From: Klebsiella pneumoniae
GTDB lineage: Bacteria; Desulfobacterota; Binatia; UBA12015
Length of the DNA: 52,306 bases
Assembly: GCA_945872365.1 (NCBI GenBank)
Contig: CAMBZJ010000022.1
Coordinates: 1 to 52,306 of the forward strand
Reading direction: 5' to 3'
Of the stretch, positions 42,459-50,316 are shown in pieces (within the stretch, counting starts at the first letter, position 1; every line of letters begins with the position of its first letter). A program made the position numbers and the translations under genes. The notes under the pieces were generated by a model. The model did not search any database. It saw only the letters and a list, made by a program, of their open reading frames with translations, and had not been told where the DNA came from.

Positions 42459-43637
42459 TCAAAGGCTCGCGTAGACCGCGTCGACGAGTGCGGTCGCGCG
42501 CGGGTCCATCAGGATGTGCGGGCCCATGCGGTTCATCACGTAGGCGAAGCCGATGCGCCGCTCGGGATCGGCGAATGCGAGCGAGCCGCCCGCGCCCGGG
42601 TGGCCGAAGGTGCGTGCACTCGGTCCCATGGTCGCGCCCTTCACGCCGCGCTGCGAAAGCATGAAGCCCTGCCCGAAGCGCGTCGGAACGCGCAGGACGA
42701 GGTCCTCTCCCTGCGACTGCTCGGCGTGGCAGCGGGCGATCGCGTCGTCCGAGAGCAGGTGCACGCCGTCCTGGCTGCCGCCGCGCGCGAGCACGCCGTA
42801 GAGGCGCGCGAGTGCGCGCGCCGTGCCGTGGCCGTTCGCGCCGGGGATCTCCGCGCGCCGCCATTCGGCGTGGTTCACGCCGAGCGCGAGCGACGACGGA
42901 TTCAGGAAGGCCATCGCGGTGACGCCCTTGGGATCCGAGAGGATCACCTCCATCAGGCTCGCGCCGTCGGGCGAAGGTTCGGCCGAGAGCTGGCTCATCT
43001 CGGCGATCCGGCCGTGCTCGTGGTCGTCGGTGCCGATGTGGAAGTCGACGCCGAGCGGCTTGCCGATCTCGTCGTGGAAGTACCGGCCGACGCTCTTGCC
43101 CGAGACCCGGCGGATCACCTCACCGACCAGCCAGCCGAAGGTGACCGCCTGGTAGCCGTGGCGTGTGCCGGGCGTCCACCACGGCTCCTGCGCCGCGAGT
43201 GCGGCGGTCATCGCGCCCCAGGAGTACAGCGCCTCGCCGGGCAGCGGCTCGCGCACGGCGGGCAGTCCGGAGCGGTGCGACAGCAGCCAGCGCACCGGTA
43301 TCTCCGCCTTGCCCGCCTGCGCGAACTCCGGCCAGTAGCGTGCCACCGGTGCATCGAGTTCGAGGCGGCCTTCGTCGACCAGGCGGTGCGCACAGATCGC
43401 CGTCACGCCCTTGGTGGTCGAGTAGACGTTCACCATCGTGTCGCGATCCCACGGGGTCGTTCGCGCCTGGTCGGCAAAGCCGCCCCAGAGGTCGACGATC
43501 GGGTCGCCGTCGAGGGTCACGGCGACCGCGGCGCCGACCTCGCGCCCCGAGGCGACTTGCTCCTCGAAGACGCGCCGGACGGCATCGAAGCGTGGTTCGC
43601 AGGCGCCTTGCGCGCCGGGGTTCGCGGTGGTGTTCAT
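42459..43637 (-). CDS. EstB-type serine hydrolase (beta-lactamase fold)
   Basis: The 392-residue protein has the SxxK motif in VNVYSTTKGVTAICAHRL (near residue 70), a Tyr-containing motif in GYQAVTFGWLVGEVIRR and a late FGHPGAGGSLAFADPE box that stands in for KTG. WGGFADQARTTPWDRDT before the SxxK is characteristic of EstB/family VIII carboxylesterases. There is no signal peptide, so it is cytosolic. A GGAA site lies before the ATG at 43637. It likely hydrolyses small esters or lactones; note the monooxygenase nearby. Confidence 0.85.
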   Translation of the reverse strand: MNTTANPGAQGACEPRFDAVRRVFEEQVASGREVGAAVAVTLDGDPIVDLWGGFADQARTTPWDRDTMVNVYSTTKGVTAICAHRLVDEGRLELDAPVARYWPEFAQAGKAEIPVRWLLSHRSGLPAVREPLPGEALYSWGAMTAALAAQEPWWTPGTRHGYQAVTFGWLVGEVIRRVSGKSVGRYFHDEIGKPLGVDFHIGTDDHEHGRIAEMSQLSAEPSPDGASLMEVILSDPKGVTAMAFLNPSSLALGVNHAEWRRAEIPGANGHGTARALARLYGVLARGGSQDGVHLLSDDAIARCHAEQSQGEDLVLRVPTRFGQGFMLSQRGVKGATMGPSARTFGHPGAGGSLAFADPERRIGFAYVMNRMGPHILMDPRATALVDAVYASL

Positions 43638-43701: not shown

Positions 43702-45177
43702 TCAGCAGAAGTCCGGGCCGCCGTCCATGTCGAAGTGGTCGGCTGCGCCGGTCCGGCCCCGGTCCGGTGCCGCGCCGCGACCGGACATCGGAAGCCCCTG
43801 AAGCCAGAGTGCGAGGAAGGCCCAGAGGAGGGGCTCGACCGTGAACTTGAAGCGCTGGTTCTCGCCCAGGTCGGCCGAGTTCGAGATGACGGCGACATAG
43901 AGCAGGTTCGCAGCGGCGAACAGCAGGGTCGCGTCCGAAGGCCGCGCGGTTCCCCCGAGCGACCGCCGCGCCGCTCCGATGCTGCACGCCGGCAGCGCTA
44001 CGAAGAAGGCGAGCAGGAAGAGCAGGCTCGTCCGGCCAAGTCCCTCGGGCAGTGTCCAGAGCACGAACCGATCGTAGATGCGACGCCACGCCTCCATGGC
44101 GGGGACCTTCCAGGCCGCGAAGAGCGGGTAGTTCTCGGTCGGTTCGAAGAAGAGCGTCCAGCCGTGGCGCCACGCCGAGAGCAGCGCGCGCGGGTGGTGC
44201 CAGGCGAGGACGACGGAGTCGCGTCGCAACTGTCGCGCGATCGCGACGTAGGCGGCGTTGTTGAAATTGTTCATGCCGAAGATCTTCTGCTTGGCGTCCA
44301 CCGCGGGGTGGCCCCGTGCCGGGAGGTCCGTCCACTCCGCGGGATACTCCGACAATTCGCCGAACGGCCGCACCAGCACGAGTGGCGAGACGACGCCCTC
44401 GCGCACGAGCGCGAGCTTCTCGTCCGTGGTCACCTCGACGCCGGCGACGCGCATGACGTGCATCCCGGCCCAGGAACTCGTGCCGAAGAAGCCGAAGACC
44501 ATGGCGTTCTTGGCGCACCAGGCGACCGGCATGAGCAGCATGGCCATGAGCACGGCCCAGGCCGCACCCCTGCCTCGCAGTTCGTGCGATGCGGCCATCG
44601 GAAGCAGCGCGATCGCGACGAGCCAGGCCGGCTGGAAGGTGGACCGCAAGAGGCAGAGCAGCGTCGGCCACAGGAGCGCGACCGCGAAGCGCCCCGGGGT
44701 CGGTCGCTCGAGCAGCTGAGAGAAGCCGAGACACGCGAGGACCAGGAGGAGCGCCTCGAAGAGCGTGTAGTAGAGCCAGCACTCGCAGTAGAGCAGGGCC
44801 GGGCTCGCGAGGAAGAGGATGCTCGTCGCGAGCGCCCATCCCCGGCGCACGCCGAGCCGTCGCAGGAGCGCGTGGAGGGCGAGTACCAGGGCGAGGCTCG
44901 CCGCCCGGAACACGAGCCCGAATCCGAGGCCGAAGTCGGTGAAGGACTTCAGGCCGACACCGAGGAAGAAGTTGAAGAGAGGCGGTTGCGCATGGAGCCA
45001 CCAGAGGCTCCGCAGCAGGTCGTCGCGCAGTAGCACGGGGTCGACGAACTGTACGCACCAGCTGAGCGCGGAAGGGTCGAAGTGCAGTCCGACGACCCGG
45101 TCCACGAAGAGGCGCGAGGCGACGAAGAGAGCGGCAAGCAGGGCTGCGTCGAATCTTTCTGCGGGTTCGTGGCGCAT
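43702..45177 (-). CDS. Multi-spanning membrane protein, GT-C/GT39-like
   Basis: This 491-residue protein has about ten hydrophobic helices. An early WWLHAQPPLFNFFLGVG segment resembles the first-loop 'QPPLF' motif of GT39-like transferases, and acidic residues lie in the preceding FVDRVVGLHFDP. It may transfer a lipid-linked sugar on the periplasmic side; the donor and acceptor are not known. It lies 72 bp downstream of the selenoprotein gene on the same strand, but a functional link is not evident. No signal peptide beyond the first helix. Confidence 0.7.
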   Translation of the reverse strand: MRHEPAERFDAALLAALFVASRLFVDRVVGLHFDPSALSWCVQFVDPVLLRDDLLRSLWWLHAQPPLFNFFLGVGLKSFTDFGLGFGLVFRAASLALVLALHALLRRLGVRRGWALATSILFLASPALLYCECWLYYTLFEALLLVLACLGFSQLLERPTPGRFAVALLWPTLLCLLRSTFQPAWLVAIALLPMAASHELRGRGAAWAVLMAMLLMPVAWCAKNAMVFGFFGTSSWAGMHVMRVAGVEVTTDEKLALVREGVVSPLVLVRPFGELSEYPAEWTDLPARGHPAVDAKQKIFGMNNFNNAAYVAIARQLRRDSVVLAWHHPRALLSAWRHGWTLFFEPTENYPLFAAWKVPAMEAWRRIYDRFVLWTLPEGLGRTSLLFLLAFFVALPACSIGAARRSLGGTARPSDATLLFAAANLLYVAVISNSADLGENQRFKFTVEPLLWAFLALWLQGLPMSGRGAAPDRGRTGAADHFDMDGGPDFC

Positions 45178-45249: not shown

Positions 45250-45780
45250 TCAGTCCCGGTCGCGGACCAGCGCCGCGACGATCGCGTCGAGCGCCGCGTC
45301 GGCCCGGGCACGCATCTCGTCGTCGTTCGCGTCCTGGATCGGATGCGGCACGAAGACGCGCGCGACCGACGGGAAGCCGAGCGCGCGCGACTGGATCTCC
45401 GCCGCATCGACGAACACGCTCGATGCGACGAAAACCGCCGGCACGCCGCTGGACTCCAAAGCTAGGCAGTCGTGCACACTGCACGACACACAGGACCCTC
45501 AATCGGCGAGCGCTTCGATGACCGCGGCGCAGCTGCGCGCGATCTCGAGGCGCAAGTCCTCCGGGGCGGGCTTCGTGAAGGTCGGCTTGCGGAAGCGCAG
45601 GACCTCGATCGACGGGAATCGCTCGCGCATGCGCTCTTCGAGGTGGGCGAGGAAGACGTCACCGCGCGGCTTGGCGATGTCGAGTAGCCCGATCGGGCCC
45701 TGCAGCTCGCGGGGCCGCGGTGCGCGTGCGCGCTCGAGCGGCACGCGCTCGTCGGTCGGGTCGAGGAGCCTCGTTGGCAT
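45250..45780 (-). CDS. UGSC family selenoprotein (in-frame UGA read as selenocysteine)
   Basis: Two short frames in the same phase are joined by one TGA (45499-45501). Read as selenocysteine it gives a 176-residue protein with Sec at residue 94: EALAD-Sec-GSCVSCSVHDC. The Sec-Gly-Ser-Cys motif and its surroundings (PIGLLDIAKPRGDVFLAHL, VLRFRKPTFTKPAPEDLRLE, VHDCLALESSGVPAVFVASS) are those of the UGSC (seleno)protein family as I know it. Both halves are needed for a sensible domain, and a stem-loop suited to a SECIS lies at 45469-45487. The family function is unknown; a thiol/selenol redox role is likely. Sec insertion needs selA, selB, selC and selD elsewhere. Start ATG 45780 is not backed by a good ribosome site. 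Without readthrough the product would be a 93-residue fragment. Confidence 0.85.
45469..45487 (-). promoter_or_regulatory. Bacterial SECIS-type stem-loop downstream of the UGA
   Basis: In the mRNA, GUCGUGC pairs perfectly with GCACGAC (7 bp) around the loop AGUGU. The stem starts 12 nt and the loop 19 nt after the UGA, and there is a G in the first two loop bases. These match the general shape of bacterial SECIS elements (loop roughly 16-37 nt from the UGA). There is no bulged U as in E. coli fdhF. The hairpin is inside the coding region, so the sequence also encodes VSCSVHD. Confidence 0.75.
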
Positions 45781-45910: not shown

Positions 45911-47371
45911 TCATCGGACCGTGTAGTCCTCCCAGCGCACCTCGCGGGTCGCATCCGCGTAGTCGCGGGTGTGCGATCCCCAGTTCTGGGTGATCTCGCC
46001 GCGCTCGTTCTTGTACCAGGATCGGCAATGCGGATCGGCCCAGGTGGTCCTGGCGAGCGCCGCCTGGAGTTCGGCGTGGAAGCGCGCCTGCGCTGCGTCG
46101 GTGGGTTCGATCGCGTCGAGCCCTCGGTCGCGCATCGCCCGCAGAGCTTGCACCGCGTACTCGACCTGGCGCTCGAGCATGAAGGTGATCGAGTTGTGCC
46201 CGAGGTTCGTGTTCGGGCCGTAGAGGACGAAGAGGTTCGGAAAATGCGCGACCGTGATGCCGAGGTAGGCGCTCGGCGACTCCGCCCAGGCGTCGCGCAG
46301 CCGGAGCCCGCCCCGACCCACGACGTCGATCGACCACTGCCAGCCGGTCGTCTCGAAGCCGGTCGCCCAGACGATCACGTCGAAGGGCTGCCGCGCGCCG
46401 TCGGCGGTCTCGATTCCTCCGGGCAGGATGCGGGCGATGCGCTCGGTGATCAACTCGACGTTCGGGCGCAGGAGTGCGGGGAAGTAGTCGTCGGAGATGA
46501 GGATGCGCTTGCAGCCCACCGGGTAGTCCGGCGTCAGCTTTGCGCGAAGCGCGGGGTCGGGCACCTGTTCCGCGAGGTGATTCAGCGCGATGCGGGTGTA
46601 GGCGGCGCGTCCCTCGTCCGTCCAGCTGAACGCCTGCCAGAACAGGTGGTCCGCGTTCTGGTAGACGAGGTCGCGGGCCATCATCGCGACGTGCGGCGCG
46701 GTGAGGGCGAGCGACTTCTCCTCGTCGGTGATCGGGCGGTCGAGCCGCGGGATCACCCAGTTGGGCGTGCGCTGGAAGACCGCGACGCGAGCGGCGACCT
46801 TCGCGACCTCCGGGATGATCTGGACCGCGCTCGCGGCCGACCCGACCAACGCCACGCGCTTGCCGGCGAGATCGACCGAGTGGGCCCAGCGCGCAGAGTG
46901 GAACGACGGCCCGGTGAAGTCTCCATGGCCGGGGATGTCGGGAACCTGCGGGCGGTTCAACTGGCCGAGCGCGGCGACGAGCGCGTTCGCCTCGATCGTC
47001 CGTCCCGCGCTCGTCTCGATCCTCCAGGTCGCACGGGTGTCGTCCCAGGTCGCCCGCGTCGTCTCCTCGCTCAGGTGCAGGTGAGGGCGCAGGCCGAAGC
47101 GATCGGTGACGTCCTCGGCGTAGCGCCGGATCTCGTCGTGGCGCGGGTAGACGTGGCTCCAGGCAAGGCTCGGCGCGAACGAGAACTGGTAGAGCGACAC
47201 CGGTACGTCGCAGCAGCAGCCCGGGTAGGTGTTGTCGCGCCAGGTGCCGCCGACGCTGGCCGCCTTCTCGAGGATGGTCAGGTCCTCGAAGCCGGCTTCG
47301 AGCAGCTTCGCCCCCGCGCAGAGGCCGCCGAGTCCGGCGCCGACGACGGCGACCGATCGCTTGTCCGACAT
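45911..47371 (-). CDS. Flavin-containing (Baeyer-Villiger type) monooxygenase
   Basis: The 486-residue protein has the FAD loop VAVVGAGLGGLCAGAKLLEAG at its start. The BVMO fingerprint FTGPSFHSARWAHS (FxGxxxHxxxW, near residue 150) follows, then the NADPH Rossmann loop VALVGSAASAVQI. It ends with a short, conserved Trp/Tyr-rich tail. It inserts oxygen next to a ketone to give an ester or lactone, or oxidises other heteroatoms. The ATG at 47371 has a strong GGAGG site; the frame upstream is an Arg-rich readthrough. It sits between the selenoprotein and the thioredoxin-domain gene. Confidence 0.92.
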   Translation of the reverse strand: MSDKRSVAVVGAGLGGLCAGAKLLEAGFEDLTILEKAASVGGTWRDNTYPGCCCDVPVSLYQFSFAPSLAWSHVYPRHDEIRRYAEDVTDRFGLRPHLHLSEETTRATWDDTRATWRIETSAGRTIEANALVAALGQLNRPQVPDIPGHGDFTGPSFHSARWAHSVDLAGKRVALVGSAASAVQIIPEVAKVAARVAVFQRTPNWVIPRLDRPITDEEKSLALTAPHVAMMARDLVYQNADHLFWQAFSWTDEGRAAYTRIALNHLAEQVPDPALRAKLTPDYPVGCKRILISDDYFPALLRPNVELITERIARILPGGIETADGARQPFDVIVWATGFETTGWQWSIDVVGRGGLRLRDAWAESPSAYLGITVAHFPNLFVLYGPNTNLGHNSITFMLERQVEYAVQALRAMRDRGLDAIEPTDAAQARFHAELQAALARTTWADPHCRSWYKNERGEITQNWGSHTRDYADATREVRWEDYTVR

Positions 47372-47483
47372 GATCGCTTCCTCCCCGCGTAGACCGGTGC
47401 CGCGACGGCGGCGACGGCCGCGGATCTTGGCGCGTCGTGGCGTACCCGGCAAGCCGGCGCGGGTCCGCGCCCGCCGGGGCGCC

Positions 47484-49079
47484 TCAGTCGATCCGCCGGG
47501 TCACGATCTCCGAGCCCATCGGCCCCTGTACCCAGCCGCCGATGACCGCTGCGAACTTCCCCGCCGGGCCACCCGCGACGACGACGTGGATCTTTGCGGG
47601 ATCGCGGAACTTGGACACCCGGACCTCGGACGGGTCACGCCCGCCGGCGAGCTTCGCCGGGAGGCCTTCGCGGCAGTCGTCGTCGGCGAGCAACTCGGAG
47701 AGCGGCCGCGCGGTCACTTCCTGGATGCGGCGCCGCAGGTCGTCCTTCGTCCAGCCGTCGCGCGCGATGGTGTCGACGTGTTCCGGCGGCAGCACGAGGA
47801 ATACGTCGCCGTAGCCGCCCCAGCGCGGGTGGGCGACGCTCTGCATGGCGAGTCCGAGCGACGTCGCGAGACCCGAGGCGGTGCGGCTCGCCTGGTCGAC
47901 GATCGCGCGCGGCGCCTCGGCCGCAAACAGGGTGACGGTGGAATCCTCGCGGACGAAGCCGCGCTCGACGTGCAGCGGCTCCCAGGGACTCGCCTCCTCG
48001 TTCTCTGCGATGCAGTAGGTGAACTTGCCGGGCTGGCCGAGCGTCGCCCGGTCCACCTCGCCCGGCCGCCCGCCGCCGACGTTGCGCACGACGAGGTTCA
48101 AGGCGCGCCCGATCGTCGCATTCGCCCGGTGGCCCTGCCCGAAGACGTTGATGCCGGAGTTGAGACCGATCCGCGCGCGGATCGGGCCGTTCACGACGAG
48201 CAGGGGGGCGGCGAAGTAGGTCGTCGCGAGCACGCCGTGCATGTTGAAGGCGTCGCTGCAGGCGGCCTCGACCGCCGCGAGCACGACCGGCAGGTAGTCG
48301 GGCCGGCAGCCGGCCATGACCGCGTTGATTGCGACCTTCTCGACGGTCGCGGGTGCGAGGTTCGGCGGCACGAGTGCCACGACCTCCCGCGGATCGCGCC
48401 GGGTGCCGCCGAGCATGCGCAGGACACGCTCCTCGGTCGGGTGCACGACCGGCAGCCCGTCGGTCACGCCGCGCGCGAAGAGCGCCTCGTCGGGATCCTC
48501 GTCGTCGCCGATTTCGATCGCACGCGCCTCGAGCCGCGCGCGTCCCTCCTCGACCTCGCGTGCACGCACGACCGACGGGTCGAGCGTGCGCGAGGCACAG
48601 CCGGGCCGGAACTCCGGCAGGCGGAAGGCGCCGATGGCTCGTTCGACCTCGGTCGTGTCCGCGCCGCAGAGCTCCGCCGCGCGCCGGGCGAGGGCCGCGA
48701 ACTCGCCGAGATGCAGGGCCTCGGTGCGGCAGACGATCGCGCCCGAGGCGTCGGCCAGAACGAGTGTGGGCACGATCTCGACTCCGAGCGCGAACGAGAC
48801 CGCCAGGTCGCGGTCGAGCGCCTGCGGGAAGCACAGCCCGTACTCGCCGATCGCGTCGAGCGTGTCGTCGTCGCCGCTCTGCGAAACGCCGATCGTCTCG
48901 AGCCCGCGCGCGTGCAGCGAGCGCGACAACCGCTCGACCGCCGGCAGGACGAGGGCGCAGGTCTCGCAGTCGCGCTTCCAGACCACGACGAGCCGCGGCG
49001 CGGGCGTCCCCGGTCGCAACTCGACCGCCTCGCCCTGGAGGGTCCCGAGTGCGACCGCCGGCAGCGAGGTCGGTGTCAT
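47484..49079 (-). CDS. Thioredoxin-fold domain fused to large UGSC-associated C-terminal domain
   Basis: The 531-residue protein has an N-terminal thioredoxin-like/AhpC-TSA-type domain with a redox CxxC (VVWKRDCETCALVLP, near residue 35) and a cis-Pro-like segment VEIVPTLVLADASG. From about residue 180 there is a large domain with GVTDGLPVVHPTEERVLRML, AAPLLVVNGPIRARIGLNSG, INVFGQGHRANATIGRAL and CIAENEEASPWEPLHVERGF. I associate this C-terminal type with UGSC proteins, but its role is not known. The ATG at 49079 is preferred over the upstream start at 49223, which adds unrelated residues. It may be the electron or thiol partner of the selenoprotein. Confidence 0.75.
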   Translation of the reverse strand: MTPTSLPAVALGTLQGEAVELRPGTPAPRLVVVWKRDCETCALVLPAVERLSRSLHARGLETIGVSQSGDDDTLDAIGEYGLCFPQALDRDLAVSFALGVEIVPTLVLADASGAIVCRTEALHLGEFAALARRAAELCGADTTEVERAIGAFRLPEFRPGCASRTLDPSVVRAREVEEGRARLEARAIEIGDDEDPDEALFARGVTDGLPVVHPTEERVLRMLGGTRRDPREVVALVPPNLAPATVEKVAINAVMAGCRPDYLPVVLAAVEAACSDAFNMHGVLATTYFAAPLLVVNGPIRARIGLNSGINVFGQGHRANATIGRALNLVVRNVGGGRPGEVDRATLGQPGKFTYCIAENEEASPWEPLHVERGFVREDSTVTLFAAEAPRAIVDQASRTASGLATSLGLAMQSVAHPRWGGYGDVFLVLPPEHVDTIARDGWTKDDLRRRIQEVTARPLSELLADDDCREGLPAKLAGGRDPSEVRVSKFRDPAKIHVVVAGGPAGKFAAVIGGWVQGPMGSEIVTRRID

Positions 49080-49143
49080 CGTGTCACGCCAGGCGTCGCC
49101 GCGGCGGGCGCCCGGCCCGGGATCGACGGAAGCACCCCGGGGT

Positions 49144-50316
49144 TCACTTCGGAAGCCCGAGCACCCTGTCGGCGACGATGTTGCGCTGCACCTCCGAGGT
49201 GCCGGCCGCGATCGTGCGGCCACGCGAATACAGCATCAGGTGCGGCCAGCGACCGTCGTCCACCGCGTGCGGCGAACCGGGCATGAGCAGGCCGGCCGGG
49301 CCGAGTGCCTCGAGCATGACCTCGAACTGGCGCTGGTACATCTCGCTCCAGAAGAGCTTCTCGATCGAGCCCTCGGGCCCGGGCGCATGGCCGCGCAGCT
49401 GGCGCGTGAGGCCCCGGTAGGCGGTGAGCCGGATGATCTCGCCTTCGAGGTGGAGCTGGGCGAGTTTCTGGCGCAGGACCGGGTCGGACGCCGCGCGCTC
49501 CCGGATCCGCGGCAGCATGTCGGCGAAGGCGACGCGCGACTGCAGCTGGCGCTGGAAGGTGAGCGTCGCGCGCTCGTGCATGAGGCAGGTGATCGCGATG
49601 TTCCAGCCGCCGTCGATCTCGCCCACCACGTTGCGGCGCGGAATGCGGACGTTCTCGAAGAAGACCTCGTTGAAGTCGTCGTCGCCGCTGATCTGCCGCA
49701 GCGGTCGCACGGTGACGCCGGGGGCCTGCATGTCGGCGACGAGGAAGGTGATGCCGCGGTGCTTGGGCGCCGTCGGGTTCGTGCGCACGAGCAGCATGCA
49801 CCAGCGGGCATAGTGCCCCCAGCTGGTCCAGACCTTCTGGCCGTTCACGACGAAGTCGTCGCCGTCGAGCACCGCGGTGGTGCGCAGCGCTGCGAGATCG
49901 GAACCCGCTCCCGGCTCCGAGAATCCCTGGCACCAGATCTCCTCGGAGGTGAGGATCGGGCGCAGGTGGCGCGCCTTCTGCTCCTCGGTGCCGTGCCGGA
50001 TGAGCACGGGGCCCGCCATCGTGAGCCCGGCGAGGTTCACCGGCAGCGGCGCCTTCGCCCGGGCGGTCTCCTCGATGTAGATGATCTGCTCGATCAGGCT
50101 CGCACCGCGGCCGCCATACTCCTTCGGCCAGGACAGGCCGGCGTAGCCGGCCTCGACCAGCTTGCCCTGAAAGTCGCGGTCGAGCGCGAGCATCTCCGCG
50201 TCGGCTCCGGGCTGTGGACAGGCGGGGGTACCCCAGCCCGGAGGCAGGGCGCGCGCGAGGAAGTCGCGCAGTTCGGCGCGGAAGCGCTCCTGTTCCGGCG
50301 TGTAGGAGAAGTCCAT
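49144..50316 (-). CDS. Acyl-CoA dehydrogenase
   Basis: This 390-residue FAD enzyme introduces a trans-2 double bond into an acyl-CoA. It has the N-terminal DFSYTPEQERFRAELRDFLA, the FAD/substrate motif WCQGFSEPGAGSDLAALRT, the middle VNGQKVWTSWGHYARWCMLL and a C-terminal YSRGRTIAAGTSEVQRNIVAD. ATG 50316 (MDFSYTPE) has a GAGGT site; the longer frame to 50448 is not family-like. It resembles long-chain or sterol-side-chain ACADs such as FadE-type, but the exact substrate is not known. It starts the same-strand group that includes the selenoprotein. Confidence 0.93.
   Translation of the reverse strand: MDFSYTPEQERFRAELRDFLARALPPGWGTPACPQPGADAEMLALDRDFQGKLVEAGYAGLSWPKEYGGRGASLIEQIIYIEETARAKAPLPVNLAGLTMAGPVLIRHGTEEQKARHLRPILTSEEIWCQGFSEPGAGSDLAALRTTAVLDGDDFVVNGQKVWTSWGHYARWCMLLVRTNPTAPKHRGITFLVADMQAPGVTVRPLRQISGDDDFNEVFFENVRIPRRNVVGEIDGGWNIAITCLMHERATLTFQRQLQSRVAFADMLPRIRERAASDPVLRQKLAQLHLEGEIIRLTAYRGLTRQLRGHAPGPEGSIEKLFWSEMYQRQFEVMLEALGPAGLLMPGSPHAVDDGRWPHLMLYSRGRTIAAGTSEVQRNIVADRVLGLPK

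Follow-up and report, generated by a model that had tools for sequence, protein, structure and literature searches.

The window, comprising the whole stretch of 52,306 nucleotides that was analysed, carries on its reverse strand a UGSC family gene, preceded by a flavin-dependent monooxygenase-like gene and by a gene in which a thioredoxin-like domain is fused to a partner domain (Table 1). Translation of positions 45250-45780 (-) with TGA read as selenocysteine (Sec; U) yields a single frame of 176 residues which incorporates ALADUGSCVSCSVHDC, with the UGSC motif at residues 94-97, and ends at a terminal TGA. Two short open reading frames (ORFs; 45499-45780 and 45250-45489) had been described here in an earlier sequence-only reading and interpreted as one gene split by an in-frame UGA; both ORFs are present, and the same-phase frame does run through UGSCVSCSVHDC as one continuous translation. 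The upstream frame stays open further 5', back to position 45954. The family assignment made in that reading is supported by scores above the curated cut-offs of both NCBIfam NF041046 (159.6 bits against a cut-off of 125; profile positions 5-146 of 147 covered) and Pfam PF24696 (154.6 bits against 25; positions 2-171 of 172 covered). Its description of an undescribed system does not hold for the protein, as the 'UGSC-containing' family was reported in 2008 as a major selenoprotein family, among the commonest in ocean and freshwater samples, for which a thioredoxin-like fold and a redox function were proposed (PMC2398784), and both NCBIfam and Pfam models of it exist. The family is listed among the uncharacterised ones in a 2026 review (PMC13188914). 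The window gene belongs to this known, functionally uncharacterised family, sharing with it the full-length match, the UGSC motif and the TGA-coded Sec, and nothing fundamental distinguishes it from the other members.

Table 1. Features of the UGSC locus, with the evidence for each
Feature	Position	Strand	Evidence
UGSC family selenoprotein coding sequence, 176 aa, Sec94	45253..45780	-	NF041046 and PF24696 matches, homologues; stop TGA at 45252-45250
In-frame TGA, Sec94 of the UGSC motif	45499..45501	-	TGA in homologues, conservation past the codon, dN/dS
Bacterial SECIS hairpin, 7 bp here, AGUGU loop; conserved 5-bp core 45471-45485	45469..45487	-	Synonymous freezing and compensatory pairing
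Flavin-dependent monooxygenase-like gene, downstream of partner and upstream of UGSC	45911..47452	-	Pfam matches
UGSC partner domain, ~350 aa	47487..48557	-	C-terminal part of ORF 47484-49223; adjacency, co-occurrence, no family match
Thioredoxin/Redoxin-like domain (CETC), N-terminal to the partner domain	48558..49079	-	PF08534 (40 bits), PF00578 (32 bits)

Comparison with the nearest relative gave dN/dS values of 0.30 before the TGA and 0.27 after it, and values of 1 or more for the other frames; the low values on both sides show that coding runs through the UGA. Conservation among the homologues likewise continues past this codon, the mean frequency of the commonest residue being 0.71 after the TGA and 0.66 before it, so that the downstream part is at least as conserved. 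The motif position is occupied by TGA in 109/111 homologues and by TGC in the other two, and the motif variants distinguished among the 111 are UGSC (106), CGSC (2) and UGAC (1). One homologue (L075) comes from the cultured Sulfitobacter noctilucae. Cys97 is invariant in the homologue alignment, as are His103, Asp104 and His146.

The hairpin GUCGUGC-AGUGU-GCACGAC (45487-45469) is separated from the UGA by 11 nt. In a gene as GC-rich as this one its folding energy by itself does not stand out (z -1.0 relative to dinucleotide shuffles), and folding compared with synonymous recodings was not significant (p 0.12). Single-sequence folding energy was therefore dropped as evidence for a SECIS element and comparative tests were used in its place. 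Across 62 non-redundant homologues, synonymous choice is extremely constrained at six consecutive codons, 99-104 (z -8 to -22). Most codons on either side lie near 0, and beyond this block only two single codons (39 and 92) go past z -4, more weakly. For example, Cys100 is encoded by TGC in 54/54 homologues and Ser101 by AGT in 60/61, as compared to AGT at 16/353 serine codons elsewhere. The frozen codons sit exactly over the hairpin, the 5-bp core of which pairs in all 75 distinct sequences (75/75). Seven of these, among them the second UGSC copy of the host, have compensatory C-G to G-C changes, and G-C/G-U/A-U variants also occur. In the two Cys genes that were read the serine is encoded by AGC and the stem is mismatched. 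Because the synonymous codons are frozen over the hairpin and the core pairs with compensatory changes, the comparative evidence is decisive for a SECIS that is real and under selection. The perfect 7-bp stem noted from the single sequence is upheld in part: the hairpin with its AGUGU loop is present and selected, but the two outer pairs are not conserved and only the inner five of the seven are.

The sequence-only reading further implied a full Sec machinery, and profile searches of the 3.12-Mb host genome, which is 97% complete, for selA, selB, selC and selD bear this out. SelA and SelB are encoded side by side on contig C29, both over cut-off, while SelD (contig C36) and a tRNA-Sec with anticodon TCA (UCA; contig C40) also score over cut-off. 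Among 58 related genomes, the host included, UGSC was found in 41, four of which (G004, G008, G020 and G050) carry only stop-free copies. SelA is absent from these four, as is tRNA-Sec, the best matches to the tRNA-Sec model there being tRNA-Ser. In the 37 genomes with TGA copies, SelA is above cut-off in 34 and tRNA-Sec is found in two more, giving 36/37 with at least one of the two; the exchange of Sec and Cys thus tracks the presence of SelA or tRNA-Sec (Fisher p 5e-5; four stop-free-only against 37 TGA genomes). In one genome rated 100% complete (G014), neither SelA above cut-off nor tRNA-Sec was found, while nearly all of its 12 UGSC loci have an in-frame TGA; our guess is an assembly gap, or else something unexplained is at work.

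A conventional gene caller returns two ORFs at this locus, as would be expected if the TGA were a true stop within a pseudogene, between two genes or produced by a sequencing error. Such an explanation is scarcely credible, considering that the TGA is common to nearly all homologues and is replaced by TGC in the two Cys genes, that dN/dS is equal across the codon, that the SECIS is under selection and that the Sec machinery is present. None of the outcomes that the sequence-only reading had named as refuting it was observed. The region 45780-45250 (-) is almost certainly a genuine UGSC family selenoprotein gene, in which the local SECIS together with the host's SelA, SelB, SelD and tRNA-Sec allows the UGA to be decoded, and Sec is predicted in the mature protein. 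Standard annotation cuts this gene in two at the UGA and leaves the partner gene unnamed.

What the sequence-only reading missed at the level of the system is a conserved partner gene, which lies two genes upstream of UGSC (ORF 47484-49223). At the host's second UGSC locus (L002), the product of the next gene resembles the C-terminal 357 residues of this ORF. That second UGSC gene (G000:C2:33143-33436, +) has its own SECIS with a compensatory base-pair change, and its partner gene lies directly downstream, in the order opposite to that of the window. A partner is encoded on the same strand near UGSC in 90/111 loci, mostly within 100 bases, being upstream in 82 loci and downstream in eight. It is missing nearby in 14 loci longer than 8 kb, and the remaining partnerless loci are short. 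At the genome level, the partner is present in 41/41 UGSC-bearing relatives and the copy numbers of the two agree (Spearman rho 0.98), with up to 12 copy-matched pairs per genome, and one incomplete genome has a partner fragment without UGSC. In one locus (L112) UGSC and partner are joined in a single open frame of 491 residues. The possession of a partner domain, seemingly an obligate one, appears to be a new feature of UGSC, as judged from these gene comparisons. A fusion of UGSC with 'Unknown_1' is mentioned in the 2008 paper (PMC2398784), and 'Unknown_1' may be this partner domain.

An N-terminal extension of at least 140 residues is present on the partner in 59 loci; 58 of these extensions match the thioredoxin domain of the window, the start of which was placed at an internal ATG, and 56 contain a C-x-T-C motif. 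The window's partner gene has the same N-terminal domain and CxxC motif as the ResA/TlpA-like thioredoxins (PF08534, PF00578), but differs from them in its C-terminal 350 residues, for which no match was found in Pfam, NCBIfam or PDB sequences. The structural model of the partner is confident (pLDDT 94.0), and fold searches with it returned weak matches of partial coverage to Toblerone/fumarase and chorismate mutase domains (best Foldseek E 0.011; VIA Z 5.3).

Besides the partner, no neighbour is conserved across most UGSC loci, and the next commonest neighbour cluster, which includes the acyl-CoA dehydrogenase-like gene of the window, occurs at 17 loci. The monooxygenase-like gene between partner and UGSC sets the window operon apart from the family at large, occupying this position only in the window and in its closest relatives (L011 and L091), and is a lineage-specific passenger. 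No substrate is indicated, and catabolic genes nearby show no conservation. A promoter and terminator scan of the UGSC region found nothing. Directly downstream of UGSC, 43702-45177 (-) encodes an apparently membrane-bound protein of 491 residues with no Pfam or NCBIfam match, followed by a serine beta-lactamase-like esterase (PF00144) at 42459-43637 (-).

Profile comparison relates the Sec region to that of GrdB, selenoprotein B of glycine reductase, a relation which the sequence-only reading did not make. Alignment of the UGSC profile with three full-length GrdB homologues using hhalign placed Sec on Sec (probability 94.5%, score 57.9) over ~76 residues or columns, the GrdB alignment being a shallow one of sequences caught by a Sec-region motif filter. 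After alignment, the two have UG[ST]C, G-[IV]-P-V and PHP in common. Column-shuffled decoys scored at most 23.9, and the only one of 188 other ORFs to score above 27.5 itself contains UGSC; a set of short GrdB-like proteins gave a weaker match (probability 70%). These comparisons make a strong, though not final, case that the UGSC and GrdB Sec regions are homologous. The relation is restricted to the C-terminal Sec region: the N-terminal half of GrdB has no counterpart in UGSC, and UGSC has no match to the GrdB/PrdB family PF07355, which was detected neither in the window protein (up to E 10), nor among the families listed for 62 UGSC members (up to E 1), nor anywhere in the host's own genome. 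Direct Pfam and PDB sequence searches for remote relatives likewise gave no meaningful match. The AlphaFold2 model of UGSC (pLDDT 93.4) is five-stranded with alternating beta and alpha elements, places Sec94 at the start (N-terminus) of the helix following the third strand, and finds its best fold matches among flavodoxin-like, lumazine synthase and Rossmann-like structures. The predicted fold is flavodoxin-like and appears to depart from the thioredoxin-like one put forward in 2008 (PMC2398784). Both this fold and the alignment of the Sec half with GrdB, Sec on Sec, appear to be new.

In glycine reductase the substrate is cleaved via a selenium-carbon adduct and thioredoxin recharges the enzyme (PMC10298544), and a fused thioredoxin is similarly carried by the UGSC partner. 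Unlike GrdB/PrdB, UGSC has no pyruvoyl (PF09338) partner, its own partner being from another, unnamed family. Identity of this partner with the pyruvoyl subunit GrdE was considered and rejected, as its profile matches PF09338 members with a probability of 0.1%, and a Schiff-base mechanism is consequently unsupported. A precedent without the pyruvoyl group is the GrdB-like selenoprotein FarB, for which cleavage of the C-F bond in fluoroacetate has been proposed (PMC10838667). The Sec coding, SECIS, Sec machinery, Sec-domain relation to GrdB, one-to-one partner and thioredoxin fusion are shown here by computation; from these we infer by analogy a chemistry, a kind of substrate and what Cys97 and the partner would do. 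Our best explanation, with perhaps an even chance of being right, is that UGSC supplies the catalytic half of a reductive enzyme with two components, in the manner of component B of glycine or proline reductase, and is reset by thioredoxin. From its place at the N-terminal end of a helix within the flavodoxin-like alpha/beta domain, Sec94 would attack a small substrate at an activated carbon or a similar electrophile; Cys97 would then resolve the selenoether or oxidised Sec to a selenenylsulfide, and the partner's fused CxTC thioredoxin would re-reduce this. As for the partner domain, it probably either provides the substrate pocket or serves to dock the two proteins.

The main rival is a plain thiol/selenol redox role, in which UGSC would be a peroxide or disulfide reductase with its Sec94/Cys97 UxxC pair reduced by the fused thioredoxin, and the partner would only dock. 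The UxxC motif with its invariant Cys97, the fusion of thioredoxin to the partner in most loci and the fold and function suggested in 2008 (PMC2398784) are consistent with such a role, which we nonetheless consider rather unlikely: the confident model appears not to have a thioredoxin fold, the profile relation points to GrdB, and copy-matched pairs numbering up to 12 per genome seem to fit substrate specialisation better than housekeeping redox. The thioredoxin-bearing partner suggests a bond-cleaving selenium enzyme over a simple antioxidant. Alternatively, Sec94 could be a metal or metalloid ligand or a stoichiometric scavenger of electrophiles, making UGSC a binding or detoxification protein as opposed to a catalyst. 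Sec may bind metals in some other families according to the 2026 review (PMC13188914), and the invariant His103, Asp104 and His146 would suit such a function, but the thioredoxin fusion implies turnover and the neighbourhood has no further conserved gene, so that this alternative is improbable.

Extending the GrdB-like reading, UGSC and its unnamed partner could tentatively, though with a good deal of doubt, be viewed as a new and widespread two-component selenoenzyme class, in which a stand-alone GrdB-type Sec domain would break carbon-heteroatom bonds with no pyruvoyl subunit and be reset by thioredoxin, with the paralogous pairs specialised for different substrates. With a defined partner, reductant and mechanistic relative, UGSC would become an enzyme that can be reconstituted.

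A separate observation concerns PF07355 in the same phylum, where short proteins that run for ~160-200 residues before an in-frame TGA (L125-L146) match the C-terminal half of this family and have U-G/P-x-C after the TGA. They are easily missed as selenoproteins because the Pfam PF07355 model stops just before the Sec.
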